This document shows, piece after piece, positions 310 through 24,768 of a DNA stretch of 30,317 nt. The notes beneath the pieces are model-generated. The model saw only the letters and a list, made by a program, of their open reading frames with translations, did not search any database and had not been told where the DNA came from. Position numbers and translations under genes: made by a program. Every line of letters begins with the position of its first letter. Position 1 is the stretch's first letter. Location: the NCBI GenBank assembly GCA_014189685.1, contig DVAB01000004.1, positions 1 through 30,317 of the forward strand, in the 5' to 3' direction. The DNA is from Candidatus Naiadarchaeum limnaeum. Lineage in GTDB: Archaea > Undinarchaeota > Undinarchaeia > Undinarchaeales > Naiadarchaeaceae.

Positions 310-1389
310 CTAGCCAACAATCTCAACTCGGAATCTCAATAGAGCTGCCAATCCGCCAATTCCTTCCAATTGCTTCCCTAGGTCGTGCTCATTGCTCACA
401 ATCAAAATTTCACCGCGCATATCATAAATATTTTTCAAAAGCTCATCTATCTGCTTGTTTTTTTCAATCTTCGATTTTTTTAAAGTGCTGTTTGAAATAA
501 GCAAAGTTTTAATCGCGCCCAAGTTCATTGCATATTCAACGTTTTTCAATCCATAGACAGCCAATCCTAAGTTTTTTGAAAATTCCTCAAAAAATTCTGT
601 TAATTTTTTTACTTCTTGCTGGACTTTCCACTCTTTTATTATTCTTTCGATAATTCCACGCTTTATAATTTCTTGTAATCCGCGCTCCCCTCCGGTTGAG
701 ACGTTTTCAATTACAGCCTTTACCGCTAATTCAGATTTTTTTTCCTTAAAATATTTGTAAAAATTATCTTTGTAAAATGCAGGCCCAGCAATAACTATCC
801 TATCTAAACCCTCTGCTTCATTTTCTATTGCATCTAATAAATCCTCAAAAAATGAAATTTCTTCTGCGCGCTTTTTCTCTGGCTCCTTTTTTCCGCTCAA
901 AGTTTTACTTATAGTTCCGCTTAATTTTACTCCATACTCCCTGAGCAATCCGAATGAGCACAATCCATCCTCAATAGCGAGCAAGAGAATTTTTGCTTTA
1001 ATCGCTTTAGAAGCATCCTCAACTTTAATTAAATCTGCTGTTGTCCAGATGTCTTTTGTAACTGTTAAAACCATTCCTGGCCGCAGGTTCAAAGTATGGA
1101 AATCTCCTGTTGCAACAGTTTCCGGGCCTTGATAGATTCTCCCTGTTACTCTCAATCTATCAATTGTGCGATCGAATTCAACAGTTTCAACTTGAATTTC
1201 AAGAGTAACAGCCTCCTTTGCAAGCCTTTCAGCCCGCTCAATTCCTTGCCTGTAATCAATTCTTCTTTTTGTTCTAGAGATAACGCGGTCGTCTTTATTC
1301 AAAATATCAGCTAAATAGTACAAATCGTCCGCTACTTCTAGGCGGAATACGATTCTTCCTTTTTTCAAATCTTTTTTAATTATTTTCAT
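310..1389 (-). CDS. pelA: Pelota (archaeal Dom34), ribosome rescue factor
   Basis: Archaeal Pelota enters the empty A site of stalled ribosomes with aEF1A or ABCE1 and starts ribosome splitting and mRNA surveillance. The 359-residue length and three-domain order fit the family: an Sm-like N-terminal domain (about 1-130, starting MKIIKKDLKKGRIVFRLEV), a central eRF1-2-like domain (about 131-265, with AGPAFYKDNF at 201-210 and STGGERGLQEII at 231-242), and an eRF1-3-like C-terminal domain (about 266-359, with YGLKNVEYAMNLGAIKTLLI and the closing GGLAALLRFRV). No GGQ peptide-release motif is present, which separates Pelota from aRF1. An A/T-rich TATA-like block at 1415-1430 overlaps the stop of the upstream gene (1434). 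The ATG at 1389 matches the conserved N-terminus. Identification is firm. Confidence 0.95.
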   Translation of the reverse strand: MKIIKKDLKKGRIVFRLEVADDLYYLADILNKDDRVISRTKRRIDYRQGIERAERLAKEAVTLEIQVETVEFDRTIDRLRVTGRIYQGPETVATGDFHTLNLRPGMVLTVTKDIWTTADLIKVEDASKAIKAKILLLAIEDGLCSFGLLREYGVKLSGTISKTLSGKKEPEKKRAEEISFFEDLLDAIENEAEGLDRIVIAGPAFYKDNFYKYFKEKKSELAVKAVIENVSTGGERGLQEIIKRGIIERIIKEWKVQQEVKKLTEFFEEFSKNLGLAVYGLKNVEYAMNLGAIKTLLISNSTLKKSKIEKNKQIDELLKNIYDMRGEILIVSNEHDLGKQLEGIGGLAALLRFRVEIVG

Positions 1390-1433: not shown

Positions 1434-2438
1434 TTATGTGCGCAACTTTCTTTCCAAAGGACGTGTGCCACCCATAATCTGGGAGAATATAAATTGAACA
1501 TCGTCCTCTATAATTCTCCAAATCTTTTGGTCGAACAATTCACTTACTTTTTTCCACCTTAAAGAATCTCCAACAAATTTAGGAAACTTATCGATTATTT
1601 TTTTTGCTTTTGGGAACTCTTCAAGAGATTTCGGGTGGAGATAGAGTTTTGCAATATGTGTAAGGCTTACAGCTTCTATAAAAATAGAATTGTCCCCCCT
1701 CAATATTGCTTTTCCAAGGAAAATGGCTTTAAGAAGCGACCTCAAACTCATTCGCATCCCAAGATTTCCTTGTTTGCCAGACACATTAACAAGCCAAATA
1801 CCAATTGTTTTTATTACTCCGTTTTCACAATTAATTTTATAGCAAGGAAAGAAGTTTGCTCCCTTTAAAACAGTAATAAATTCACTTCGCTCAGAGGTGC
1901 AAACGCTTACACCTGGGAGCGGGATATATAATATTTCTTCGGTGTCAGGAGCATCCCTACTCCACATTTCTTCAAAAAAATCTCTACGAAGAAATTTGTA
2001 AATATGGTACAAATACGCAGGGCCCAATTCTATAGAGATGAATTTCTCTATATAATCTTTAAAAGGCATACCATGTACTTCTGCGTTATATGCCAGTACC
2101 GCTCTTTCAAAAAAATCTTTTCCGCCTTTCATATGTATAGACTTTAAAAAATCTTTGCCAACCACTAGTTGGATAGCGTTCTCTATATAGGCCGCTTTTA
2201 CTTTAAGCGCCATCTCACCAGTTAGAGTAGCACCTGTAGGTTTCATTGCTCCAAAAACATCCAAAAATTTTTGATATCCCCTTCTAAATTGGTCCTCTTT
2301 ACCATCATCAATTTTTGCGCTTGCCAATTCCCACCTATGCCTGAAAGCGCCACGATTTACATTTTCAGCAAATTGAATTAAGTTCCGCTGAATCTGCGGG
2401 CTTAAATCTGAAAAGCTTGGGCCACCGATTAATCCCAT
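1434..2438 (-). CDS. Hypothetical 334-aa protein, no recognised family
   Basis: I do not recognise this protein. It begins MGLIGGPSFSDLSPQIQRNL and is a mixed helical and beta soluble protein without a signal peptide or a convincing membrane segment. The first half (about 1-160) is predicted helical and rich in Phe/Tyr/Lys. The middle (about 165-235) is more beta-like and has three spaced cysteines (one in VSVCTSE, two in FFPCYKINCENG). The C-terminal third is helical again and ends in a basic tail, RPLERKLRT. The ATG at 2438 is supported by a TATA box at 2464-2472, giving a leaderless start. It is divergent from the 2524 gene and has an 85-nt intergenic region with separate TATA boxes for each direction. 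It is probably real because the frame stays open for 1 kb with a proper promoter. Confidence 0.75.
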   Translation of the reverse strand: MGLIGGPSFSDLSPQIQRNLIQFAENVNRGAFRHRWELASAKIDDGKEDQFRRGYQKFLDVFGAMKPTGATLTGEMALKVKAAYIENAIQLVVGKDFLKSIHMKGGKDFFERAVLAYNAEVHGMPFKDYIEKFISIELGPAYLYHIYKFLRRDFFEEMWSRDAPDTEEILYIPLPGVSVCTSERSEFITVLKGANFFPCYKINCENGVIKTIGIWLVNVSGKQGNLGMRMSLRSLLKAIFLGKAILRGDNSIFIEAVSLTHIAKLYLHPKSLEEFPKAKKIIDKFPKFVGDSLRWKKVSELFDQKIWRIIEDDVQFIFSQIMGGTRPLERKLRT

Positions 2439-2523: not shown

Positions 2524-3351
2524 ATGGCAGCTGCTCATTCTAGTAAACAGGCAGAATTAAAGCCCAAGCACAGAAGAAATTTGCGAAAGTACGCGAAGCT
2601 TTTGCACGGATTAGGAGTTGATGTCTCTGAGCATGTTGAGAGGCTTGAGCTGGATGAGAAAGAGCTGAATGAATTTCGCGCGAAATTTGGAAAAGAAACT
2701 TTTCTCAAGCCTGCTGACCGCACTAAACTTAAGCAGATTTTAACTAGAGTTTTAAATTTAATGCGAATATTTGTAAGATTTGAAGATACTCTTTGGGAGC
2801 AGGTTGCCCCTCTAACTCTTGCAGCCTACCGGAAAGAAATTTTCTCAACAGACTTAATTGAGCTAAAAGCGGTGCGCGAAATATACTCCGCATTATATCA
2901 GAAAAAAGCAGCACAATTAAAAGTTGATCTCCCAGCTGCGCGCAGTTTAATTCTTTCATCAATTGCAATAGAACACAGAGAACTTTTTACACTATATCCA
3001 AGGCTTCTGAGCGATGTTGAAAAAGTTATTTCAGAGCTTGTTGAATTTGAACTGCGCTTTGCAAAAGTAGAGCACGATTTAAAAGACAGATTTTTGGAGC
3101 TGAATAAAAATCTGCGCAAGCTTTTGCACGAGGATACTTATTTTATTACAAAAGACCTTGCAAAAATCTATGATTTGCGCTTAAGCGTGTATAACTGGAT
3201 TGTTCAGATTGACCATGAAGTAAAGCCGCCAATTATTCCAAAAGCTGCTGAAGAAAGGGAGCAATTAATTTCCGCGCGCAACTTTTACCTTGGCACTTAC
3301 AAACAACATGTTCAAAACATTGCTCAGATTTATTTGAGAGGTGTGAAGTAA
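2524..3351 (+). CDS. Hypothetical all-helical cytosolic protein, partner of the 3351 membrane protein
   Basis: Unrecognised 275-aa protein. It has no signal peptide or membrane segment, is rich in Leu/Glu/Lys/Arg, and shows long heptad-like helices (for example about 150-210, with ISELVEFELRFAKVEHDLKD). That predicts an elongated helical bundle. The N-terminus is basic (KPKHRRNLRKYAKLLHG). The TAA stop at 3349-3351 overlaps the ATG of the next gene at 3351 in a TAATG junction, so translation is very likely coupled and the two products probably work together. A cytoplasmic adaptor for the large membrane protein is the natural reading, but that is inference. A TATA box at 2495-2505 places transcription start close to the ATG. 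Confidence 0.75.
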   Translation: MAAAHSSKQAELKPKHRRNLRKYAKLLHGLGVDVSEHVERLELDEKELNEFRAKFGKETFLKPADRTKLKQILTRVLNLMRIFVRFEDTLWEQVAPLTLAAYRKEIFSTDLIELKAVREIYSALYQKKAAQLKVDLPAARSLILSSIAIEHRELFTLYPRLLSDVEKVISELVEFELRFAKVEHDLKDRFLELNKNLRKLLHEDTYFITKDLAKIYDLRLSVYNWIVQIDHEVKPPIIPKAAEEREQLISARNFYLGTYKQHVQNIAQIYLRGVK

Positions 3352-6191
3352 TGGCAATTCAAGATTTTCTTGCAGGAAACTTTTTGGCATTTGCAGTAAT
3401 TGCTTCAGGGAGTTTGTGGATGCTCCTTGCGATTTTTGCCCCCTTTAATAAAGCTGTGGGAAAAGCTTTGAGCAGTGCAATTCCATGTATCGGAAGTTTA
3501 TGCGCTTGCTTCTGCGGATTTTTTGGTCCGTGGCTTCAGCCGCTCACAACAATCATGCTTTTAATCTATACAGTTGCAATGCTGATATTCAATCCATTGC
3601 CGATTGCAATTGTGCTGGCGATAATCGGAATTTTTGTTGGTGTTTTTGGAGTTCTGCTTAAAAAATTGCCGCCGCACGAGCTTGAGATAATGGGAATTCC
3701 TTTTGCAAGCAGAAAATACAATTCATTCTGGATGGTTCTCTTTAGCATAGGAATGATTTTTTATACAATGTTTCTGTTCCCAATTGGAGCGATTTTTGGA
3801 TTTATCTTTTTAATTTTGCTGGTTGTTGGTGTTATTGCAGGAATTGTTTTAATTGCAGTTTTTGCCCCTGAGGTTGTTGCGCCAATGGCAGCAGAATTAG
3901 GAGTTGGAGGAGCAGCAGCTGGAATGGCAGGCGTGGAAGGAGTTGCTGCTGGCGGAGAAATGATGGGTGGAGGAGAATTTGCAGGCATGGCTGAACAAGG
4001 CGCAGGTGCTCTTAGAGGAATGGGCGCAGCTGGAAAAGGCATGGGGGGTATGGGCGGAATGCCTGGGATTGGAGCAGAAGAGCAGAGCATGGTGCAAGAG
4101 GTTAAAGGCGTGCAGCAAAACATTGTTAATGAGGCTGAGGGGGCTCTCGCTGCACAGAGGACTGCATCTCAAACAGAGATTGCGTCAGCACAGTCTGAGC
4201 TAAAAGAAGCGCAGAAAGCAAAAGACCCGCAGTTGGAACAAACAGCACGGCAAAGATTGAATAGTGCACAGCAGCGCTTCCAAGAATCAGGTGAGCGCTC
4301 ACAAAAATTGTTTGGCTCTTTACAAGATTCAACAGAGGACTCAGAAGGCGGTAGATTTGGAAGGCATTTTGATAGTTCTGGAAAAATGGCAACTTGGGAA
4401 ATATTAATACTTGGAATACTTGTATTCTTTTTTGTAATAGTTGTTGCCGCATATGTTATACCGGAGAATACTCCTGCATACAATGGAGTCAAATTTTTAT
4501 TTGATGGCATTAAATTTGGAGTGGATGCTATATGGCGCGGTATTTTAAATTTTGGAGACTGGCTAATTAGTTGGCTCGGGTCGCAATTCACCCCATGTGA
4601 AATCGGAGCAACAGGAGTTCCTTGTAAAATTTTGCAACAGCGGTCATGCGAGCCATTCTGTATCTCGCCATCTGGCCGCGAGGCTCCATGGAAAGGATTT
4701 GAAATTAAAAAGCTTGAGGTTGTTCCTGCAACAATATTTGATTATCAGAAATTTTCAATCTTGTCAGAATTTGCAAATGAGGGCTCAGGGGATTCAACTT
4801 TTGCAACTGTGGGTGAGCCAACATTTGGCTTTTTCCAGGCAGGCGGAAAATTGAGATGTGAATGGGGTCTTGGCGGAATAATTTTCTGGGAGCCTACATG
4901 CAGAAAAGTTTTCCCTATTGTGGAGGGCTCATCTATAACAACTTTAACATCCGGAAAATGCGCAAAAGCTGGAGGAGAATTTGAAGCTCCATGCACTCTT
5001 GAGCCAGGGGAGGTTTCTCAGATGAGATGGTTTGGCTTTGATATTGAGGAAGGAGTTATTAGAAAAGGAATAACAGTCAAGCCAGATATTTCAATTTCCA
5101 TGGATTATTTCTTTTTGGTTCCAAACGATGTTGTTGGAAGCATGGCAGTGCAAACTTTCCAAGAACAATTAGCAACTTCTACTGTTGAAAAAAAGGAAAA
5201 GAGAATTATAAACAAAATCAATCGTGTTTATTCACCGCCCGGACCGCTTATGATTGCGATGGGAACTGCAGAGGATCAGGTGATTTCAACTATTCCAACC
5301 CTCTTCTTAGTTCAGTTTGCTAATAAAGGGAAAGGAGTTGTAAGTGAGCTTCACAAAGAAAAAATGAAACTTTATCTCCCTCCTGACTTTAGGCCTTACC
5401 AATCACCTTCTGGTGAGGAAATTTGTGATTTTGAAACGTTGTGGCACAGCGATCCTAATGGAGATGGTGTAATAACATTAGCCGATCTTTCCCCGATAGA
5501 AAGAGAAAAATGGAATCCAGGCCCAGGATTTGAAGACCATATTATTTATGAGCCAAACGAAAGCCTGCTTGAAATTGCTCAAACAAGAAATCCTTTAGAG
5601 ACGCCTACTTACTTCTGCGTTTTAAACACTCCTGTTAATGTTGAAAAAGTTAAAACTTATGATTTCAAAATGCGCGTAACTGAATATCTTTACACAGAAT
5701 CAAAGCGCACTCGCCTCTCAATTATGGGAACAGCACTTGATGTTACTCCTGCTACTACACCAGCAGGAGAACAAACTAAATCATTTAGTCTTGGGAGATG
5801 TCCACTTAGAACTGGTGGGTGGTGCTCATCCCATCAGACTCTAGAGTTTAAAGATGAAAGTGGAAAAAATCCTAAAGAGTATAATGTTAAAGAAATAACT
5901 GTAAATGCAAGGCACGGAGGAGAGTGGGGATGCGCAGATTCGCGTATTTTAATTACAGCACAAAATGCTGCTGGCGGAAATGTTCCGCCTCCTGAAAAGC
6001 TGCTCAGTGATCCAAATGCACCGCTTGGTATAACAGAGCCTGCCCCATCACAGGGTAGGCGTGGAATAACAGTGGTATTTCCAGAAGCTGTTAGAATTCA
6101 AAAAGTTAGGGCAGCAAGTGTTGGCCATGGATTTGGCATTCCATGTCCTTTCATAGATGATGTTACTGCAGTAATAACATACACGGAGTAG
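3351..6191 (+). CDS. Large multi-pass membrane protein with Gly-rich linker, coiled coil and exterior beta domains
   Basis: Unrecognised 946-aa protein. Residues about 8-175 hold several hydrophobic helices (for example LAFAVIASGSLWMLLAIF and FILLVVGVIAGIVLIAVFA). Residues about 176-245 are a Gly/Ala/Met-rich low-complexity stretch. Residues about 247-320 form a charged, Gln/Ala-rich coiled coil. A further membrane helix lies at 349-371 (WEILILGILVFFFVIVVAAY). The remaining 570 residues are beta-rich, have paired cysteines, and presumably lie outside the cell. Two segments, near 'FANEGSGDS' and 'FANKGKGVV', resemble the Ig/CARDB-like strands of the lipoproteins that follow. At 701-712 the sequence DPNGDGVITLAD matches the DxNxDGxxxxxD calcium loop of dockerins and EF hands. 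It overlaps the upstream gene by 1 nt and sits 45 nt before the lipoprotein array. A surface-complex scaffold is plausible but unproven. Confidence 0.8.
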   Translation: MAIQDFLAGNFLAFAVIASGSLWMLLAIFAPFNKAVGKALSSAIPCIGSLCACFCGFFGPWLQPLTTIMLLIYTVAMLIFNPLPIAIVLAIIGIFVGVFGVLLKKLPPHELEIMGIPFASRKYNSFWMVLFSIGMIFYTMFLFPIGAIFGFIFLILLVVGVIAGIVLIAVFAPEVVAPMAAELGVGGAAAGMAGVEGVAAGGEMMGGGEFAGMAEQGAGALRGMGAAGKGMGGMGGMPGIGAEEQSMVQEVKGVQQNIVNEAEGALAAQRTASQTEIASAQSELKEAQKAKDPQLEQTARQRLNSAQQRFQESGERSQKLFGSLQDSTEDSEGGRFGRHFDSSGKMATWEILILGILVFFFVIVVAAYVIPENTPAYNGVKFLFDGIKFGVDAIWRGILNFGDWLISWLGSQFTPCEIGATGVPCKILQQRSCEPFCISPSGREAPWKGFEIKKLEVVPATIFDYQKFSILSEFANEGSGDSTFATVGEPTFGFFQAGGKLRCEWGLGGIIFWEPTCRKVFPIVEGSSITTLTSGKCAKAGGEFEAPCTLEPGEVSQMRWFGFDIEEGVIRKGITVKPDISISMDYFFLVPNDVVGSMAVQTFQEQLATSTVEKKEKRIINKINRVYSPPGPLMIAMGTAEDQVISTIPTLFLVQFANKGKGVVSELHKEKMKLYLPPDFRPYQSPSGEEICDFETLWHSDPNGDGVITLADLSPIEREKWNPGPGFEDHIIYEPNESLLEIAQTRNPLETPTYFCVLNTPVNVEKVKTYDFKMRVTEYLYTESKRTRLSIMGTALDVTPATTPAGEQTKSFSLGRCPLRTGGWCSSHQTLEFKDESGKNPKEYNVKEITVNARHGGEWGCADSRILITAQNAAGGNVPPPEKLLSDPNAPLGITEPAPSQGRRGITVVFPEAVRIQKVRAASVGHGFGIPCPFIDDVTAVITYTE

Positions 6192-6199
6192 AAAAAGAT

Positions 6200-6212
6200 A
6201 ATATATATAAAA
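6200..6212 (+). promoter_or_regulatory. TATA box for the first lipoprotein gene
   Basis: AATATATATAAAA lies about 25-37 nt before the ATG at 6237, just after the stop of the membrane-protein gene at 6191. It allows the lipoprotein array to be transcribed separately from the 2524-3351 pair. Confidence 0.6.
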
Positions 6213-6236
6213 GGGCATAAACAGTAAATTATAGCA

Positions 6237-7583
6237 ATGAAAACTCACCACTCACAAAGAGTAAAATTACTCTCTGTGTTAGTCCTAGTAGCAGTTGTAG
6301 TTTTTGCAGGATGTATTGGACGTGGTGGAGGGGATAGAAAATTTCTTAATTTTGGCGAGGATGCTTTAAAAATTGCTATTGATACGGAAGGCAGAAGTAC
6401 TTTTGACAGCCTTCAGCAATTCACAGTAACTGTTACAGCAGAAAATATTGGCAAATTTGATGTTTTTAATGTTACTTCGCGCTTGCAGGGATATGATGGA
6501 ATAACTTCAACAGAAACTCCACGTGCTCAGCTTTCAGATGAGCGCTCATTAAGTCAATCCACTCTTGATCGCCCGCAGCCAGATAAAAAAGTTGCAGGCG
6601 GCACAGGCAGTGTTGATTGGGATGTTGCTGCTCCATTTGTTCCAGTTGATTCTCCTGATAGAGAACTTATATTGACAGGGGAGGCTATTTATGATACAAA
6701 AAGTTTGGCAACTCAAAGAGTTGTTGCTGCAACAAGAACTCATGTTGTGAATTTAGAGGCGCGCGGGGAAGCAGTTCCTGTAATGCCTGAAACAGATGCA
6801 TTAAACGGTCCAATTGCGATTGATGTTGAGATTCCAGTTCCATATGTAAAAGTTATTGGAAAGAGAAATGATTTCCCAGTTAGAATTCACTTGAATAATG
6901 ATGGCTCAGGGACATTGTTGAACAGAGAAATTGGGGAGTTTGATTTTTTAAGCAAAGTTATTATGAAAGTTCCCCCTGGGGTAGGAATTGATGCAAGAAA
7001 CTGCGACTTTGTTCAAATTGGCACAACAGATATTGGATTGGAGAAAACTTTGATAATTGATTTGTCAAACAACAGACAAAAACTCAGACTGCTTGAGGGC
7101 GGAGCAACTAGAGATATGAACTGCAGACTCTATGCAGATTCCGAATTTGTAACAGGCTACAACACTTTTGATTTGAGCATAGCTGTATATTACACTTACA
7201 TACAAGATGTTTCAAAGCGCCTCTTAATAAAAGGAACAGAACAGGCTCCTCTAACAATAAGAATATTAGAGCCAACAGAGGCAAACACAGATGACTGGAT
7301 AAGAAACACTGTGCATTCAGTTAAATTCGAGGCCATCTATCAGAATATTCCGGTTACTACTGCCTTAACACTCGCAGATGTACGCGCGGCTTTAGATGGA
7401 ACAGACGCAGAAGAAATTGACTTGACATTTGATACTGCACAGGATGCGTGGATTTTAAGAGTAAGAACTCCGGATATGGGAACAGCATCTGCTACATTTG
7501 ACTTAACATTGGATGTGAACTTCCAGGCAGAGAGTGGAAGTGACACAGAGAACGATGCAATTAACTACTCACCAACTCCATAA
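6237..7583 (+). CDS. Surface lipoprotein 1 of 5, CARDB/Ig-like modules plus extra C-terminal beta domain
   Basis: The 448-aa product has an n-region MKTHHSQRVK, a hydrophobic stretch, and lipobox VVFAGC with the lipidated Cys at 26, followed by a Gly-rich spacer. This predicts a lipid-anchored extracellular protein. The first beta module (about 43-160) contains 'TVTAENIGKFDVFNVTS', the same strand-turn-strand signature seen in the four following genes. A second module (about 190-320) contains 'PVRIHLNNDGSGTLLNREI'. Unlike its neighbours it has a third, Thr/Asp-rich beta segment (about 335-448, LTIRILEPTEANTDDW onward). The substrate or partner is unknown. The membership in the family is a by-eye alignment of recurring motifs. 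A TATA box precedes it, and the next gene starts 15 nt downstream. Confidence 0.8.
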   Translation: MKTHHSQRVKLLSVLVLVAVVVFAGCIGRGGGDRKFLNFGEDALKIAIDTEGRSTFDSLQQFTVTVTAENIGKFDVFNVTSRLQGYDGITSTETPRAQLSDERSLSQSTLDRPQPDKKVAGGTGSVDWDVAAPFVPVDSPDRELILTGEAIYDTKSLATQRVVAATRTHVVNLEARGEAVPVMPETDALNGPIAIDVEIPVPYVKVIGKRNDFPVRIHLNNDGSGTLLNREIGEFDFLSKVIMKVPPGVGIDARNCDFVQIGTTDIGLEKTLIIDLSNNRQKLRLLEGGATRDMNCRLYADSEFVTGYNTFDLSIAVYYTYIQDVSKRLLIKGTEQAPLTIRILEPTEANTDDWIRNTVHSVKFEAIYQNIPVTTALTLADVRAALDGTDAEEIDLTFDTAQDAWILRVRTPDMGTASATFDLTLDVNFQAESGSDTENDAINYSPTP

Positions 7584-7598
7584 TAAGTTTTGATAAAA

Positions 7599-8525
7599 AT
7601 GAAAAGGAACAGATTTTTTCTGATTGCAATTGTACTTGCTTTTGTAATAGTTGCTTCTGGATGTCTTGGCCCAAACAAACCACAGGGAAGACTTCCTTCA
7701 CAATTTCCAGGCCTGATTATAACTAATTTTATTTCTGATTTCCCCCAAATAGATGCAGGGGAGCGCATGAGCGTTGAAGTTGATTTTGATAATGTTGGGG
7801 ATGAGGTTGCGCGCGAAGTAACAGGAGTGCTAATTCGAAGAGGAGCATTCCAAGTTAATCCCTTTATCCAGAGCTTACCAGCAGACCTTGAGCCTCCAAT
7901 CACAGATGTTCCAAGCGGGGATGCTTTTATTTGGGAATTAACAGCTCCTCAAGTAACTCAGGAAAGGATTGAGGAAGTTCAGGCGCGCGTATTTTATAAA
8001 TACGAAACACAGGGCTTTGGAACCATTAATTTTGTACCGCGAGATATAATAAGAGAAAAAGGAATTTCTGCTTTTCAAATTGACCCAAGCACAAGCTTAG
8101 GCCCATTAGAGGTTGAAGTTGTTGCAAACCAGCCTGTTGTTCTTAGAAATCCCATATCACAAAATGTTTCACTTCGAGTTACAGTATTGATTTCAAATGT
8201 CGGCCCAGGGAGAGTTGAAAACGAAACATTTAGCGGGGGCTGCAACAAGGCTCTTGACTGCATTGATTCTGTAAGGATAGAAGGATTCGGAGTTTCATGC
8301 AGGGATGCAAGTACCTCTGGGGATGTTTCTGCTCTGCTCCCATTGGACAGAAAATTTGATGGGGTACGATTAGTAGAAGGAAATGAGGGTAAGTTAACAG
8401 AAGTTGTCTCTTTCCTTGTTCCAGATGCCAGTGCTGCAACAAGCTGCCAGATTAAAGTTACTGCTACTTATAGGTACAGAGTTGACAGCGATGTTTTAAA
8501 TCTCAGAATAGAGCCAGTAACATAA
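7599..8525 (+). CDS. Surface lipoprotein 2 of 5, two Ig-like modules only
   Basis: The 308-aa product starts MKRNRFFLIAIVLAFVIVAS with lipobox VASGC (lipidated Cys 22). A TTG nine bases earlier (7590) would add three residues; the ATG at 7599 gives the normal short basic n-region and is preferred. Module one includes 'VEVDFDNVGDEVAREVTG', and the link region includes 'ARVFYKYETQGFGTINF'. Module two includes 'LRVTVLISNVGPGRVENE', with a Cys pair (GGCNKALDC) and a further pair near the end. The protein stops after the strand 'IKVTATYRYRVDSDVLNLRI', so it appears to be the minimal two-module version of the family. It is 15 nt after lipoprotein 1 and has no clear promoter of its own, so the two are probably co-transcribed. 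Confidence 0.8.
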   Translation: MKRNRFFLIAIVLAFVIVASGCLGPNKPQGRLPSQFPGLIITNFISDFPQIDAGERMSVEVDFDNVGDEVAREVTGVLIRRGAFQVNPFIQSLPADLEPPITDVPSGDAFIWELTAPQVTQERIEEVQARVFYKYETQGFGTINFVPRDIIREKGISAFQIDPSTSLGPLEVEVVANQPVVLRNPISQNVSLRVTVLISNVGPGRVENETFSGGCNKALDCIDSVRIEGFGVSCRDASTSGDVSALLPLDRKFDGVRLVEGNEGKLTEVVSFLVPDASAATSCQIKVTATYRYRVDSDVLNLRIEPVT

Positions 8526-8528
8526 ACC

Positions 8529-8534
8529 TTATAT
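8529..8534 (+). promoter_or_regulatory. TATA box for the SLT-domain lipoprotein gene
   Basis: CCTTATATC, with the core TTATAT at 8529-8534, ends about 26 nt before the ATG at 8560. It sits in the 34-nt gap after lipoprotein 2, so the lysozyme-like gene can be expressed on its own. Confidence 0.55.
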
Positions 8535-8559
8535 CTTTTCGATTTTATCTAATTATTTA

Positions 8560-10041
8560 ATGAAAAGTCTAAACAAGCTTTTAGTTATTTCACTATTAGC
8601 CATAGTTTTAATTTTTTCAGGATGCATTGGAGGCGGAGATAGAAAAAATCAAACTTTTGGCTCTGGGCTGAATGTTATTTCTTTCACTGCTCTAAGACAA
8701 GTTGATTCTGCTGAGCAATTTGATTTGGATTTAGTTGTCCAAAATATTGGAGATAAAGACGCAACAAACATTCAAGCAGATCTTTTTCAAACATCTGCAA
8801 TTACAATTCTAAACAATAGAGTTCAAACAGAATCAAGACTTTTGCCTCCAGATATTGAAAAAGGAATTGAAGGAGAGGATACAATTTTTTCTTGGAGCCT
8901 TCAAGCTCCAACACTTACAGAAGACCAAACAAAATCTTTGCAAGCAAGAATAACTTATGATTACACAAGCACTGCAACTTCTAATTTGTACATAGTTTCA
9001 AAAGCTGAGCTAGATGAAAAAGGTGCGCATGCTTTTCCAACTTATTCTACTAGTTCGCGCGGCCCAGTAACCTTGAGTATTGTTGAAATGCCTCCTTTCA
9101 AAGTTACTTCAGGACAAACAAACGCTCGCGTTCAAGTTAACCTAATAATTGAAAATACCGGATTTGGCCGCGTTGTAAATAATGAAGTTAGAGATTTTGC
9201 AATTGTCTTAAAAGGAGAAGGAACTGAGCGTGATATAACAAATAATTGTCCAGATATAGTGAGCGGAAGAATTAAATTATATGGAAAGGAGCAGGAGCGC
9301 TCAATCAGATGCTCACTTGTTTTGCCATTTTCTGAAACTGCTGTTTCTTATATTGTAGAGGCAGAAATGGGTTATACATATTATATTGATACAAATCCGC
9401 TTGCAGTTAGAGTAAAGGGTGGTACTGGAACTAGCAGTACTACTGTGATTACTTACAGACAACCAGCATCACTACAGAATGAGCCTATTGGAGATTGGTG
9501 GGATGATATAGTGGATATATGTGTCGACAAATGGGGACTCAGAGACCCCTATTTTATAGCAGCTATTGTAAAAAAAGAGAGTTGGTTTGACGCATCCGCA
9601 TTCAACGCTGGTGAAAAGCAAGCTTGGGAAGCTTACCAAAGCGGTCAAACAACTGTCAAGCCCTGGCACGAAGAATACTATGGAAAAGGATTAATGCAGA
9701 TAACTGGCCCATGGATAGCTGGAGTTCCAAGGCCAAGCACTTTTGAATGGCAATACAATATGCCGCCTGAAGCAATACAAACTCAAGCTCCAGTGATGAC
9801 AGATGCTTATAACGGAAGGCAAAATTTAGACAGAGGCTGCTGGTATATGAAAGCGTTGCTCAATCACTATGGCAATGACCAGTATAAAGCAGCAACAGCT
9901 TATAGGTTTGGCTGGCAGGGTACTGATGCTGGTTCTTTTGATCCTTATGATAATAATTATGTCAATGATGTCTTCAGGTATAAGAGCGAATATTTGCAAA
10001 ATGTCGGCTATACAGAAAATCAATTTCCAAGCAGACCATAA
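8560..10041 (+). CDS. Surface lipoprotein 3 of 5 with C-terminal lytic transglycosylase (SLT/lysozyme-like) domain
   Basis: 493 aa. Lipobox IFSGC (lipidated Cys 22). Two Ig/CARDB-like modules follow (about 35-160, with 'LDLVVQNIGDKDATNIQ'; about 168-288, with 'VQVNLIIENTGFGRVVNN'), then a Ser/Thr linker (about 288-300). Residues about 311-493 match the SLT lysozyme-like fold: IAAIVKKESWFDASAFN with the expected catalytic Glu at 340 followed by Ser, GLMQIT at 377-382 (family motif GLMQ), a helix with NLDRGCWYMKALLNHYGND, and AYRFG at 447-451 in place of the usual AYNxG. These enzymes cleave the MurNAc-GlcNAc backbone of peptidoglycan, a polymer archaea lack. The target is therefore probably foreign, or an unusual glycan. 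I infer a lipid-tethered, outward-facing enzyme aimed at another cell. Activity is unproven. Confidence 0.85.
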   Translation: MKSLNKLLVISLLAIVLIFSGCIGGGDRKNQTFGSGLNVISFTALRQVDSAEQFDLDLVVQNIGDKDATNIQADLFQTSAITILNNRVQTESRLLPPDIEKGIEGEDTIFSWSLQAPTLTEDQTKSLQARITYDYTSTATSNLYIVSKAELDEKGAHAFPTYSTSSRGPVTLSIVEMPPFKVTSGQTNARVQVNLIIENTGFGRVVNNEVRDFAIVLKGEGTERDITNNCPDIVSGRIKLYGKEQERSIRCSLVLPFSETAVSYIVEAEMGYTYYIDTNPLAVRVKGGTGTSSTTVITYRQPASLQNEPIGDWWDDIVDICVDKWGLRDPYFIAAIVKKESWFDASAFNAGEKQAWEAYQSGQTTVKPWHEEYYGKGLMQITGPWIAGVPRPSTFEWQYNMPPEAIQTQAPVMTDAYNGRQNLDRGCWYMKALLNHYGNDQYKAATAYRFGWQGTDAGSFDPYDNNYVNDVFRYKSEYLQNVGYTENQFPSRP

Positions 10042-10050
10042 AAATATAAG
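10041..10050 (+). promoter_or_regulatory. TATA-like box for lipoprotein 4
   Basis: AAAATATAAG lies 24-33 nt before the ATG at 10074, immediately after the stop of the SLT-domain gene. The spacing fits a leaderless archaeal start. Confidence 0.45.
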
Positions 10051-10073
10051 TAAGGCTAAACAAAAAAGCAATA

Positions 10074-11057
10074 ATGAACAAGAAATTAATTCCAATCCTA
10101 ACTTTAATAGCAATAGCATTTATTGTAGGCTGCCTTGAACGCGGTGGAGATGGAATAAAAGAAGGCTATCCAGGAGTTATAGTAACAGATTTTACTCCAA
10201 CAATTTCAACTGTGCGCGCCGGAAGTCCAATAGATTTTTTTGTAACAGTTCAAAATCAAGGATTTTTTGATGCGCAGAATGTAAATATTTTAATTTTTAA
10301 TTGTGGCCCCTCAAACACAGGAAAAAGCTCTGCAAAAACTCCTCCTGATTACGATTACACTTGCAATAATCCGGTATTTCAAAATGATTTTAATCTTGCA
10401 AAGCCTGACCGCGATTTAGGAATTGTAGGAGAAATAAAAGAGGCTGAAGTTTCTCTTGACACAGACCCTGCAGGTTTTCCGGAAGGAAGAAGCCCACAAA
10501 CTTTTACTGCCAGAGTTATTTATGATTACAAAACAACAGGGGCAATCGATACAGTATTTACAACTTTTGCAAACTGGAAAGAAAAATCAGGAAGAATAAC
10601 AACAGGCCCGCTTAACATGTTTAGCGAGCCAGCTCCTCTAACTTTATTTTTGAATGCACCTCGGGAGCCAATTGTAATTGACAATCCAGCCAATCAGCAA
10701 AATTTCACAGTAGGATTATCAATTAGAAATACCGGAGGAGGATTTGTTAAGGATAAACTTTTAACTAAAATAAAACTCTGCTATAACCCACAATTTATTG
10801 AGCCTGTTCTAGACACTGTAACAGGGCAACATGGTGATTTCAATCGCACAATTGAGGGGGGAAATTGTTTGGTTGTGCTCCCTGGAAACGATAATCTAAA
10901 ATTAGTCGGATTAACAAATCAATACAGGGACGTTGATGCTCGATTTAGAAATGTTCCCAACGCAATTAAAATTCAGGATGTAACAACATTTGAGGCTGAA
11001 CTAACATACGCATACACTTATGATAGATCAACAAGTGTAACGATTTTGAATGCTTAG
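10074..11057 (+). CDS. Surface lipoprotein 4 of 5, two Ig-like modules only
   Basis: The 327-aa product starts MNKKLIPILTLIAIAFIVGC (lipidated Cys 20). Module one opens with 'GVIVTDFTPTISTVRAGSPI' and continues 'FVTVQNQGFFDAQNVNI'. The bridging strand is 'ARVIYDYKTTGAIDTVF'. Module two has 'FTVGLSIRNTGGGFVKDKLL', and the protein ends with a strand of the type 'AELTYAYTYDRSTSVTI'. These strand signatures recur at equivalent positions in all five lipoproteins. Like lipoprotein 2 it lacks any C-terminal cargo. Its TAG stop abuts the ATG of lipoprotein 5 with no gap, so the two are almost certainly co-translated. No enzyme motif is visible; an adhesive or structural role is inferred. Confidence 0.8.
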   Translation: MNKKLIPILTLIAIAFIVGCLERGGDGIKEGYPGVIVTDFTPTISTVRAGSPIDFFVTVQNQGFFDAQNVNILIFNCGPSNTGKSSAKTPPDYDYTCNNPVFQNDFNLAKPDRDLGIVGEIKEAEVSLDTDPAGFPEGRSPQTFTARVIYDYKTTGAIDTVFTTFANWKEKSGRITTGPLNMFSEPAPLTLFLNAPREPIVIDNPANQQNFTVGLSIRNTGGGFVKDKLLTKIKLCYNPQFIEPVLDTVTGQHGDFNRTIEGGNCLVVLPGNDNLKLVGLTNQYRDVDARFRNVPNAIKIQDVTTFEAELTYAYTYDRSTSVTILNA

Positions 11058-12233
11058 ATGAAAAAACTAATCCCCTTTCTCATATTTATAGGAATTTTCT
11101 TAACAACAGTTTCTTTTTCAGGGTGTATAGGAAAAAAAGCAGAATGCCCTGTTGTTGTTTCACAGACAGAAGGAGTTGTCATAACAAGATTTGAGCCTTC
11201 TTATGACTTAATTCCTGTTGGCGATATTATAGGGTTAGTTGCAGAAATACAAAACAGGGGAAATGCAAGAGCGCGCAACATAAACTTAACATTATGGGCC
11301 CATCCTGGATTTTTACTTTTGGATAAAGATCCCTATAAGGATGGTATAACAAGGCGTGGGCTTGCTGATTTAGATAAGACAGACGCAACTATGGATGCAC
11401 CCCGATTAGATATATGTAGCGCAGGAGATTCTCAAGTTGTGCAGTGGCAATTGCAAGCTGGCTGCGACCCTCGCGAAACTCCTCTGGCAATTGCAGTTGA
11501 TTATGATTACGAGTCAGATGGATGGGCATCTGTCTTTATTGTTAGTTCAGAAGAATTCAGAAAAACAGGCGGGAAGTTTTCTGAAAAAGGCCAGAACTTT
11601 CCATCCGCAGGCCCGATTCAAGTAATTATTGAACCATTGCAGACAGAGCCTGTTATTCTAAGTCGATCTGCTCCAAACTTTGATGTCCGAGTTAAATTTA
11701 AAAATTTGGCAGATGGAGTTGCAGGAATAGAGGGAAGCGGCAATCTAGCTTTAGTAGAACTAACAGTTCAAGGACCTTGCAGATTTACTGAATTAAATGT
11801 TGGCCGAGATCCTTCTGATGACCGAAGGATTACATGGGGAACTTATCCCTACAGAAATCAAGTCACTTTGCGCGTTGGCGAGCAGGAAGCTTTTAAAATT
11901 GCCAAGCTTGAATATGATGATAATTTTGATAATTTTGTGAAAGATTTTTGCAGAATAAACGCTAATGTTGATTATCACTACAGAGTTGTTGAGGAAGTAA
12001 GGAAAAAGGTTGGAATAGCAGGGTCATCATCCCAAGTTAAAGAGTGCAGGGTAGGAGCTACTTGTACAGATGCTTGCAGGCAAGATGGTTTTGACTATGG
12101 AAGATGTGTTCCAGAAGAGCTTGCTGTAAGCGATACAATCCCAGATTTGTGTGGAATAGGGTCGGATACAACTTTAATTTGTGAGTGTAAGAATTTCCCA
12201 GAGGGCCCAGGTGAAAGGCCAGTTAGCGGTTAG
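11058..12233 (+). CDS. Surface lipoprotein 5 of 5 with Cys-rich CS-alpha-beta-like C-terminus
   Basis: 391 aa. Lipobox VSFSGC (lipidated Cys 23). Module one has 'GVVITRFEPSYDLIPVGDI' and 'LVAEIQNRGNARARNINL'; the bridging strand is 'AVDYDYESDGWASVFIV'. Module two has 'FDVRVKFKNLADGVAGIEG', ending near 'NANVDYHYRVVEEVRKKV'. After a Ser-rich hinge, residues 330-391 hold seven cysteines (330, 336, 340, 350, 365, 375, 377). The arrangement is C-x5-CxxxC, a GxC (Y-G-R-C at 350), then CxC (375-377). This is the spacing of CS-alpha-beta peptides such as insect drosomycin and scorpion toxins, with one additional cysteine. A disulfide-stabilised binding or toxic tip on a lipoprotein is inferred; a chance Cys-rich module is the alternative. 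It starts directly after the stop of lipoprotein 4. Confidence 0.8.
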   Translation: MKKLIPFLIFIGIFLTTVSFSGCIGKKAECPVVVSQTEGVVITRFEPSYDLIPVGDIIGLVAEIQNRGNARARNINLTLWAHPGFLLLDKDPYKDGITRRGLADLDKTDATMDAPRLDICSAGDSQVVQWQLQAGCDPRETPLAIAVDYDYESDGWASVFIVSSEEFRKTGGKFSEKGQNFPSAGPIQVIIEPLQTEPVILSRSAPNFDVRVKFKNLADGVAGIEGSGNLALVELTVQGPCRFTELNVGRDPSDDRRITWGTYPYRNQVTLRVGEQEAFKIAKLEYDDNFDNFVKDFCRINANVDYHYRVVEEVRKKVGIAGSSSQVKECRVGATCTDACRQDGFDYGRCVPEELAVSDTIPDLCGIGSDTTLICECKNFPEGPGERPVSG

Positions 12234-12240
12234 TATAGTT

Positions 12241-13482
12241 TTAATATTCCCCTAAAGTTTTCTGCGGTTTTTTCTTTTTTGCTATTCCAGAAATTTTTGC
12301 CACTCCGTAAACTCCATCATAACCAGGAATAATCTCAATTTTTCCTTCTCTGTTATCAATTATTAACTTTACAAGTTTTTCATCAACAGCTTTTTTTAAT
12401 TCGCTTTCATTTGTTTCAAGTAAAATATTCAATTCATTCTTAAATTTTCCAATTAACAAATCATAAATTTCAAAAACTTTCTTTGAATGAGCTTGTTCCA
12501 AGCCCAAATATCCTGCAATTACTTCTGCGAGCGGAATTAATCTGTAAAAATCTGGCTTTCCTTTTGGTTTAAATCCATCTTGACGATCTGCAAGCTCATC
12601 CACTCTATGAAGAACTCCAATTGTTAATTTGCGGCCGCATTTTGGGCATTTATTATTTTTCGCAATTGATTCTTTCGGGCTTAAAGAAATATTGCAAGAC
12701 CTGTGGCCATCAAAATGATATTTTCCATAATTCGGGTCAACTTCAATCGTTCCAAGAAAACCTTCTCCTGTGCGAATTGCTTTAATTAAATTTTTATAGC
12801 TTAATTCAATATCCAAAATGTTGCACTCGCGGCCCATTCTCCATGGCCAATAGCTGTGCGAATCTGAATTTGAAACTAAAGTAAAGCGGTCTAATTTACT
12901 TAATCTCCAATTCATTTGTGGATCGCTTGAGAGTCCGGTTTCCAAAGCAAAAATTTCATTGCTCTTATCTAAAAAACATTCCTCAACAGAATTAAATCCT
13001 GAATTGCTCCCGAAAATTGAAAACCACGGAGTCCAAGCATGCGCAGGGATTATTTCAATTTCTTTTGAGATTTCTTTTAACTTTTCAACTAATTCGACAC
13101 AGGAAAAAGTAAAAGTTGGGCGGCCATCTTCTTTCAAATTTCCTTTATCTTTTAAGAAATCACTTATTTGTTCTACAGTCTCAAAATTAGGTGCCAATAA
13201 AATGTTATGAATTTTTCTAATTTTTCCATCCTGTTCATAAATATTTGAAATCTCAGCCTGCAAAACAAATGGAAATCCGTTATTGCTTTTGTAAATTCCC
13301 TTCTCATCCTCTTTCAATTCGCGCTTTAATTCCTTAATCCATTCAGGATGGGTAAAATCCCCTGTGCCCAAAAGTGAAAGCCCTTTTTTCCGTGCCCAGT
13401 ATTCAATTTTTTCTAAACTTAAATCTTTACTGCACGCTCGACTGAATCTTGAATGTAAATGTAAGTCTGCGAACAATTTCAT
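12241..13482 (-). CDS. Endonuclease Q (PHP-type DNA repair nuclease)
   Basis: EndoQ, described from Thermococcales, nicks DNA 5' of deaminated bases (uracil, hypoxanthine, xanthine) and abasic sites. The 413-aa length and motif order match. The PHP metal site has D6-H8-H10 (ADLHLHSRFSRACSKD), GTGDFTHPEW at 39-48, E77, H92, H148 and SDSH at 206-209. The zinc part has C263, C279-xx-C282 and the strongly conserved 'LTIGVLHRVDELADR'. A GTG at 13497 would add five residues. I choose the ATG at 13482 because a TATA-like block (13507-13515) lies about 29 nt upstream and because family members start at the PHP strand. It is convergent with lipoprotein 5 (7-nt gap) and divergent from the aminotransferase. 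With Ogg2 at 22589 it gives the cell two base-damage repair entry points. Confidence 0.9.
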   Translation of the reverse strand: MKLFADLHLHSRFSRACSKDLSLEKIEYWARKKGLSLLGTGDFTHPEWIKELKRELKEDEKGIYKSNNGFPFVLQAEISNIYEQDGKIRKIHNILLAPNFETVEQISDFLKDKGNLKEDGRPTFTFSCVELVEKLKEISKEIEIIPAHAWTPWFSIFGSNSGFNSVEECFLDKSNEIFALETGLSSDPQMNWRLSKLDRFTLVSNSDSHSYWPWRMGRECNILDIELSYKNLIKAIRTGEGFLGTIEVDPNYGKYHFDGHRSCNISLSPKESIAKNNKCPKCGRKLTIGVLHRVDELADRQDGFKPKGKPDFYRLIPLAEVIAGYLGLEQAHSKKVFEIYDLLIGKFKNELNILLETNESELKKAVDEKLVKLIIDNREGKIEIIPGYDGVYGVAKISGIAKKKKPQKTLGEY

Positions 13483-13506
13483 TATCCCACAACCCACTCT
13501 TAATAT

Positions 13507-13542: not shown

Positions 13543-14572
13543 ATGGAAAAGGTGATGCCAATGAAAAACAAGAAAATTAATTTGAAAGAGAATTTGAGCA
13601 ATATAGATTGCTCGCTGGGAGTTAATCCATATTCTGGTTATCATTGGCATCTCAGTTGAGTTTTCGGAATTAGTAAAGAACTACCCAAGTGAGAGTTCTG
13701 AGAAAAAGCTGAAAGAAGGAATAGCAGAATTTCTAAAAATCAGCGAGAGCCAAATTTTTCTTGGGAACGGCTCGATGGGTGTGCTTGACAGGATTAACAA
13801 GGCGCTTTTGAAGCCAAAAAGTTTAGTCCTTGGGTTTGAGCCGCAGTTTACTGTTTTCGAGGAGAATGTAAATTCTTTTGGCGCAGTATACAAATCGCTT
13901 AAGCTAAAAGAAAATTACAAATTCGCTGTAGAGGAATTCGTGCTATTTATTGAAAACAATCCCAAACACAAAATTGTCTATATAGACAATCCGAGCAATC
14001 CAACAGGGCAAATAATTCCTTTAAAAGAAATTGAGAAAGTTGCAAAGGTAGCGAATGTGCTAATTGTTGACGAAGCTTACGGCGAGTTTATGCCGAAGAA
14101 AAATTCTGCGGTTAATTTGTTGAAAGATTTTGATACTGTCATTGTTACTCGCAGCTTTTCAAAAGGATTTGGGCTGGCAGGATTAAGAATCGGATACGGC
14201 ATAATGAACAAAAAATTTGGAAAGTTGTACGAAAAAGCAAGGCTGCCATTTGAGTTCAACATAGTAGGGCTTGAGGTTGCATTCAAAGCCTTGCAATCAA
14301 ATTTAATAGCTGAAAGCATACCGAAAATCAAAGCAGAAAAGAAATTTTTAATTGTTAACTTTAAAAAGCTTGGCTTTGAAATTGCGCAAACAGATTTATC
14401 AGTGCCGATATTTTTGGCTAAATGCAGTAAAATTCCAAATCTCAAAAAAGTTTTCTCAGAACGTGGAATTTTAACCGGCGAGTACGCGACAAAAACTAAT
14501 AATGAAGTTAGAATCAGAATCCCAGGCTCAATGAAAAAATGCAGAGAAATAATCAAAAGAATTTCAAACTAG
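13543..14572 (+). pseudogene. HisC/CobD-type PLP aminotransferase broken by a frameshift
   Basis: Fold-type I aminotransferase of the histidinol-phosphate aminotransferase/threonine-phosphate decarboxylase group. From the ATG at 13543 the frame encodes an N-terminal part ending 'NIDCSLGVNPYSGYHWHLS' and meets TGA at 13657-13659. The rest continues in the +1 frame, which is open from 13607: EFSELVKNYPSE, then FLGNGSMGVLDRINKAL, VYIDNPSNPTGQ (Asn of the PLP site), VDEAYGEF and SFSKGFGLAGLRIGYG with the PLP lysine. Both halves together make one normal protein of about 340 residues, slightly short near the break. Joining CTC-AGT to GAG while skipping one T restores the frame. It may be a sequencing or assembly error, a recent pseudogene, or a +1 recoding site at UGA. 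The ATG at 13775 would give only the 265-aa C-terminal part. Confidence 0.75.
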
Positions 14573-24513: not shown

Positions 24514-24768
24514 TTAGAAAGTGCTCCAGAATGCGTGGCTTACTAGCAATCCTATAATAAATGCAATAACCAACATTAAAATTGGGCCAAGTCCGCCAGC
24601 CATTATAAAGCCAATGCCCTCGGTTATCGCTGCAATCCCTAGATTCTGGTCAGGCTGCGCAACGCATGGCTTTTCTTTGTCAGCTCTTCTTGTATCCTGT
24701 GCAGAAACTACAAATGCACCTAGCACCAATGCTAGCACAAGCGCCAATATCAGGATTTTTACTCTCAT
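24514..24768 (-). CDS. Small exported or membrane protein
   Basis: Unrecognised 84-aa protein. Residues 1-23 form a signal peptide-like segment (MRVKILILALVLALVLGAFV, with possible cleavage near VSAQ). A short charged stretch with one Cys (KEKPCVAQPD) follows, and then a Gly-rich hydrophobic helix at about 48-79. The hairpin-like shape is typical of small channel, holin-like or pilin-like proteins, but no specific call is possible. The ribosome binding site AAAGGAGG lies in the last codons of the upstream OB-fold gene, whose TAA directly precedes this ATG, so translation is coupled. It is the last gene of a three-gene run from 25320. Confidence 0.7.
   Translation of the reverse strand: MRVKILILALVLALVLGAFVVSAQDTRRADKEKPCVAQPDQNLGIAAITEGIGFIMAGGLGPILMLVIAFIIGLLVSHAFWSTF

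Follow-up and report, generated by a model that had tools for sequence, protein, structure and literature searches.

Tandem predicted lipoprotein arms with exchangeable tips, encoded beside pelota in an Undinarchaeota genome and in other small archaeal genomes

Introduction

The described systems closest to the locus reported here are murein-cutting enzymes and contact structures of DPANN archaea. Proteins with SLT (lytic transglycosylase) domains occur in Pacearchaeota and Woesearchaeota and have been proposed to serve in attachment to bacterial walls (fam00969; PMC8204110), murein transglycosylases are reported from Woesearchaeota (PMC9723730), and archaeal peptidoglycan hydrolases can kill bacteria (PMC12352652). 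The attachment organelle of Nanobdella aerobiophila shows repetitive densities on the outer membrane face at the contact site, where they replace the S-layer (PMC11104419). Other proposed contact machinery comprises the type IV pilus loci with coiled-coil proteins, found also in Undinarchaeota (PMC11291902), and the SPEARE proteins (PMC6642349). Here we describe an array of five consecutive genes for predicted lipoproteins, P0001 to P0005, in Candidatus Naiadarchaeum limnaeum (Undinarchaeota; contig DVAB01000004.1 of assembly GCA_014189685.1). The window analyzed, 30,317 nucleotides, is an entire contig (C2) of a 983,883-base genome assembled in 52 contigs with a GC content of ~38% (G000).

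The portions consulted of PMC12352652, PMC8204110, PMC9723730, and PMC11104419 contain no description of the gene block to which this array belongs, and comparison with these four reports is made on those portions. As in the Pacearchaeota and Woesearchaeota, a murein-cutting domain of a DPANN archaeon is involved for which a use against bacterial walls can be proposed; the reports there concern large SLT proteins or gene presence, whereas here the enzyme is one of several tips on an arm specified by a multigene block, which is found in Undinarchaeota and other families beyond those covered. The bacteria-killing archaeal hydrolases are likewise modular and subject to domain shuffling, but the examples given use peptidoglycan-binding domains, while the arm described below is membrane anchored. 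The genes of the Nanobdella organelle are not named in its report, and the organelle is a candidate match only, with nothing that links it to the block. The type IV pilus loci, with their pilus ATPase, TadC, and coiled-coil proteins, differ from it in gene content, and so do the SPEARE proteins, which are single polypeptides of giant size bearing domains of protease and restriction-enzyme type.

Results

The five genes lie on the + strand at 6237-12233, with spacers of 15, 34, 32, and 0 nt (Table 1; for P0002, an ATG start at 7599 is preferred to a less likely TTG at 7590). Each product begins with a lipobox whose cysteine lies near residue 20-26, a pattern found in these five only among the 35 open reading frames (ORFs) of at least 80 amino acids (aa) picked in the window. 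A first-pass annotation had described the array as tandem paralogous lipoproteins sharing a two-module stalk and differing at their C termini, a description that the present data bear out. A profile built from four members retrieves the fifth at E values of 2e-12 to 3e-25 (Z = 1000) even after removal of the first 35 residues, so the paralogy of the arms is not a product of their signal peptides. Invariant positions are N70, G72, Y152, P192, N221, G225, Y319, and Y321 (P0001 numbering). In AlphaFold2 models, run for P0003 and P0001 among the five on alignments of 18 sequences, the P0003 arm (residues 36-288) forms two beta-sandwich modules, mostly at a predicted local distance difference test (pLDDT) score of 85-95, and P0001 forms two beta-sandwiches followed by a third beta domain at the C terminus (mean pLDDT, 80.6). 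Beyond this common part, the C terminus is an SLT domain in P0003, the extra beta domain in P0001, and, in P0005, a Cys-rich segment with 7 Cys within the last 71 residues; P0002 and P0004 have no tip.

The fold of the arm is a familiar one. Fold comparisons return generic immunoglobulin (Ig)-like and macroglobulin-type domains. The Pfam family CARDB (PF07705) is not matched by P0001-P0005 even at an E value of 1; in two sets of arm proteins it is matched by 5/45 and 3/55 (best E, 4.5e-5 and 1.8e-4), relatives in each case. As modeled, and judged from the matches of these relatives, the arm is made of two Ig-like/CARDB-type beta-sandwiches, not of novel folds. Such a fold is common and therefore says nothing on function by itself; what is specific to the arms, unlike CARDB and Ig-like modules generally, is their lipid-anchored two-module arrangement and the synteny of the block.

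The array proved to be part of a larger unit than the five genes first proposed. The ectodomain of P0006, the multispan protein encoded directly ahead of the arms (here BIG), is homologous to the arm over both modules by profile comparison (hhalign of A2 versus A3, E = 7e-7; LIPO hidden Markov model [HMM], E = 1.8e-8) and bears the same landmarks as the arms (N-x-G, GP, N-x-G-x-G-x-V, and Y-x-Y). The BIG profiles A3 and A4 gave no direct alignment with each other (E = 0.11), and each aligns with the lipoprotein profile; in a contig scan, A3 found matches only in four records of the window's own order. The position of P0006 ahead of the arms is retained in relatives. P0006 hence carries an arm on a multispan membrane anchor, and there are therefore six arms, not five.

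These arms are encoded in a conserved, pelota-linked gene block. Searches with the arm profile, with the block protein T380, and for glucosaminidase domains covered 149 genomes; gene calls in relatives are the output of a simple ORF picker, and all cross-genome counts are raw and uncorrected for phylogeny. Strong arm-profile matches, mostly in tandem, came from many families and from some two dozen small genomes or more; from their size, their relatedness, and the names available for a few, we infer these genomes to be DPANN. The recurrent gene order is pelota / T380 / BIG / DUF63 / 1-7 arms, with parts absent in some lineages. T380, a one-span beta protein encoded divergently from pelota and a usual member of the block, is present in 35/149 genomes, every one of ≤1.3 Mb, and pelota lies divergent and ≤134 nt away in 23 of the 28 T380 loci fetched and 2.9 kb away in one more. 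DUF63 belongs to the block in several families (Pfam E, 1.9e-47). The window has the same layout, its arms adjoining a multispan arm protein and pelota. Conservation of the cluster across genomes, chosen beforehand as the test that could overturn the first-pass annotation, was thus found as synteny of arms and pelota in relatives. The literature searched yielded no description of this block, which is apparently undescribed.

A tree of 44 arms places every lipoprotein of the window with its own orthologues of the same order across families f1, f2, and f4 (SH-like approximate likelihood ratio test [SH-aLRT] support, 99-100), and the gene order of the arms is preserved in relatives of the order. 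Since each of the five has its own orthologue group across the order (for P0001, in G001, G003, G004, and G005), they were distinct before the order diversified, and on this phylogeny the tandem duplication is old and the array not recent. The SLT tip has a different history. In the same four genomes the orthologues of P0003 end after the arm or in a Gly-rich tail and have no SLT domain, so the tip looks recent: either the Naiadarchaeum line acquired it or all the others lost it, acquisition being simpler. Relative to the first-pass scheme of tandem duplication followed by cargo gain, the correction is that the duplication is old and that only the SLT tip looks recent. In UBA55 (L045 5666-6133, - strand), the region of the P0005 orthologue contains repeats rich in Asp that are similar to the calcium-binding type 3 repeats of thrombospondin.

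The P0003 tip lies above the cut-off of PF01464 (E = 2.5e-7; 30.7 bits against 21.3), and in a scan of the whole genome with this family (E = 1.7e-7) P0003 was the sole SLT carrier. As in SLT/GH23 lytic transglycosylases, the putative catalytic Glu340, the GLMQI motif at 377, and an AYRFG stretch are intact; the first two can be aligned with their counterparts in five other DPANN SLT domains, and the tip may be active on peptidoglycan. It differs from usual SLT/GH23 domains in sitting on an archaeal lipoprotein arm and in having no match in the phage collection or by sequence in the PDB. A phage origin was considered and rejected (no tblastn match in that collection at an E value of 0.01); a PHROG endolysin family matches the tip at 1.5e-5. 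A candidate second SLT copy on contig C35 of the genome was also discarded, the weak match proving to be a module of the P0001 tip type. This module is reused there in a PKD-type protein (G000:C35:12939-13241; L008 685-1839), a secreted product, assigned to the PKD type by eye, that ends in a domain clearly akin to the P0001 tip.

Murein hydrolases also occur as tips of homologous arms elsewhere. The BIG protein of G129 (1,458 aa) has an arm from residue 744 and a C-terminal SLT domain at 1216-1348 (E = 1.6e-16). At the BIG place of the pelota block, G082 encodes a 643-aa protein with a glucosaminidase domain (E = 5.3e-15), the sole one above cut-off in the genomes searched; its arm-like ectodomain was recognized by eye from motifs, not by HMM. 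The most direct case is a pair of congeneric genomes: in G091, a membrane arm protein carries a Cys-rich linker and an SLT tip (E = 8e-6), and its orthologue in G051, whose gene lies near a contig end and is incomplete at the N terminus, ends in an M23 tip (E = 5.7e-27). Arm and linker are common to the two (phmmer, 6e-31) and the tip is not, which by sequence comparison is a direct tip swap. Because the swap separates close relatives, the arms are modular; together with the SLT and glucosaminidase tips above, it gives the best support to the first-pass view that an anchored arm is repeated with tips that can be exchanged. Genes of pilus type surround the arm loci of G051, G091, and G071 (in G091, T2SSE and T2SSF were confirmed; the others were assigned by eye), and in G071 a 791-aa protein with SLT and Amidase_2 domains (L057 10037-12412, - strand) adjoins two arm proteins in such a locus. 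Among 100 arm proteins scanned, murein hydrolases were the only recognized catalytic tips. An enrichment of SLT domains in genomes with strong arms (9/28 versus 7/121; Fisher P = 4e-4, hand-tallied) is confounded by phylogeny and was set aside as evidence. Armless DPANN proteins with SLT, NlpC/P60, or M23 domains were seen at or near the end of strings of short, pilin-like genes in L102, L105, L109, and L119.

Table 1. Features of the arm locus in the window
Feature	Position	Strand	Description	Evidence
pelota	310..1389	-	Divergent neighbor, marker of the conserved block	TIGR00111, E 4.5e-81; synteny
Unnamed protein	1434-2438	-	Between pelota and P0006	No family match
P0007	2524..3351	+	275 aa, directly 5' of P0006	No family match
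P0006 (BIG)	3351..6191	+	Membrane spans, Gly/Ala/Met-rich and coiled segment, span, arm-homologous ectodomain (~residues 440-800)	
TATA-box-like A/T stretch	6201..6215	+	Before P0001	A/T-rich run in the 45-nt P0006-P0001 gap; impression from sequence only
P0001	6237..7583	+	Lipoprotein arm 1, 448 aa, two Ig-like modules and C-terminal beta tip	Lipobox FAGC; AlphaFold2
P0001 tip	7272..7544	+	C-terminal beta tip, ~residues 346-436	AlphaFold2 strands 359-436
P0002	7599..8525	+	Lipoprotein arm 2, tipless	Lipobox ASGC; orthologue clade n = 4, SH-aLRT 99
P0003	8560..10041	+	Lipoprotein arm 3 with SLT tip, 493 aa	Lipobox FSGC; AlphaFold2 arm 36-288
P0003 SLT domain	9544..9912	+	Lytic transglycosylase domain	PF01464; putative catalytic Glu340; GLMQI at 377
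P0004	10074..11057	+	Lipoprotein arm 4, tipless	Lipobox IVGC; clade n = 6, SH-aLRT 100
P0005	11058..12233	+	Lipoprotein arm 5, Cys-rich C terminus (~12018-12230)	Lipobox FSGC; clade n = 3, SH-aLRT 100

Upstream of the arms, the unnamed protein and P0007 are inserted between pelota and P0006 and are not at that place in marine relatives; in L043 and L045, pelota adjoins BIG directly. Directly 3' of the array (12241-13497, - strand) lies a gene for a PHP-type protein of the TIGR00375 family, homologues of which occur beside the arm block as well in L047, L049, L053, L056, L065, L068, and L112. Farther along, an aminotransferase-like ORF (13775-14572, + strand) apparently has no N-terminal part, possibly through an upstream frameshift or truncation. 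An 84-aa protein with a signal peptide and a hydrophobic C-terminal half (24514-24768, - strand) adjoins a PCNA-like gene and looks like a small two-span pilin-like protein; a similar small protein stands beside the same PCNA-like gene in G004 (L044 833-1099).

Discussion

We read the locus as encoding a complex of arms, anchored by lipid and by membrane spans, that serves contact with other cells and has repeatedly been armed against bacterial walls, and we put the probability of this reading at roughly 0.55. P0001-P0005 and P0006 would be subunits of one cell-surface apparatus whose Ig-like arms are held in the archaeal membrane, five by lipid and that of P0006 by its spans, with P0006 probably the scaffold around which the lipoprotein arms assemble. 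The core would be an ancient structure by which DPANN make contact or adhere, with its genes next to pelota, and its arms would be free to gain C-terminal cargo, murein hydrolases (SLT, M23, and glucosaminidase) having presumably been added independently in several lineages. The lytic transglycosylase that P0003 carries in Naiadarchaeum would stand slightly above the membrane, held by the arm, and could there cut peptidoglycan when a bacterium is attached. The anchoring, the existence of several distinct arms, the membrane scaffold, and the kind of enzyme acquired would all be explained by a contact apparatus whose arms can be loaded. The bacteria-killing archaeal hydrolases (PMC12352652), the SLT proteins of Pacearchaeota and Woesearchaeota (PMC8204110, PMC9723730), and the Nanobdella organelle (PMC11104419) make such an apparatus more plausible. 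The suggestion of an adhesion or attack apparatus made in the first-pass annotation is narrowed by these results, because most arms carry no catalytic tip and attack is hence unlikely to be the ancestral function.

Several observations weigh against this interpretation. Recognized catalytic tips are present on 5 of the ~115 arm proteins examined. At 30.7 bits the P0003 SLT domain is a divergent one, a PDB sequence search with it returned nothing credible, and it was not resolved in the AlphaFold2 model, most likely because the alignment held no SLT homologues. Lipid modification of P0001-P0005 at the lipobox cysteine is a prediction from the motif; lipidation proteins, AliA and AliB, are described from Haloferax (PMC12186497). 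The homology of BIG to the arms is supported by profile comparisons on few sequences, and Ig-like folds are frequent in surface proteins, so that the resemblance between distant arms is possibly in part generic. As to the block, no T380 match was found in the window's own genome or in the four members of its order that have arms, and DUF63 is missing at the Undinarchaeota locus, where pelota, BIG, and the arms persist. Finally, we know of no host for Naiadarchaeum.

The main rival, since most arms are without an enzyme, is a structural role in the cell's own envelope: the arms and P0006 would span the space below the S-layer and hold that layer or organize membrane complexes, with hydrolase tips as sporadic additions of no interorganismal role. 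Conservation of the block in many lineages agrees with such a role, as does its constant synteny with the housekeeping gene pelota, which suggests a core function; yet every recognized catalytic tip is a murein hydrolase, from three families and in four lineages, and no murein that these enzymes could remodel is known in such archaea; we consider an envelope scaffold doubtful. Less probable again is that the arms belong to a type IV pilus-like filament or are accessory to it, as minor adhesins or tip holders. Here one can point to the second arm loci of family f37, set among T2SSE, T2SSF, and pilin-like genes, to the one N-terminal span of T380, with a class-III-like KGQ start in some genomes, and to the other DPANN murein hydrolases with which strings of pilin-like genes end. 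On inspection by eye, however, neither a pilus ATPase nor TadC was recognized beside the window arms, nor in most pelota blocks, and the lipoboxes would locate the arms to the membrane, not to a filament; we regard a pilus as unlikely.

Two further explanations can be given very little weight. The adjacency of a multispan Gly/Met-rich protein, an SLT protein, and lipoproteins recalls a type IV secretion-like machine, with P0006 in the place of VirB6/TrbL, P0003 of VirB1, and the lipoproteins of VirB7. P0006 has no TrbL or VirB6 Pfam match even at an E value of 1 and is accounted for as an arm protein, and the P0003 orthologues have no SLT tip; for want of Pfam support, and given the identity of P0006, the idea was dropped as most improbable. 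That the genes are CARDB-type lipoproteins of unrelated use, multiplied by a chance tandem duplication, would agree with how widespread such modules are and with weak single matches in large archaeal genomes, but is contradicted by the conserved order, the orthologue groups, and the synteny of the block across the order and families, and is scarcely credible.

The contact-complex reading can be taken further, to a view of the block as a DPANN-specific contact organelle, a previously undescribed machine, that is possibly the basis of a cone-like organelle of the Nanobdella type and whose arms are loaded, according to lineage, with different murein hydrolases for a life on bacteria; this extension we offer only tentatively. 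The gene-level basis of how DPANN archaea grip and exploit other cells is largely unknown, and the block is a concrete candidate for it. The repeated fusion of different wall-cutting enzymes to its arms suggests that some DPANN act on bacteria and not only on archaeal hosts.

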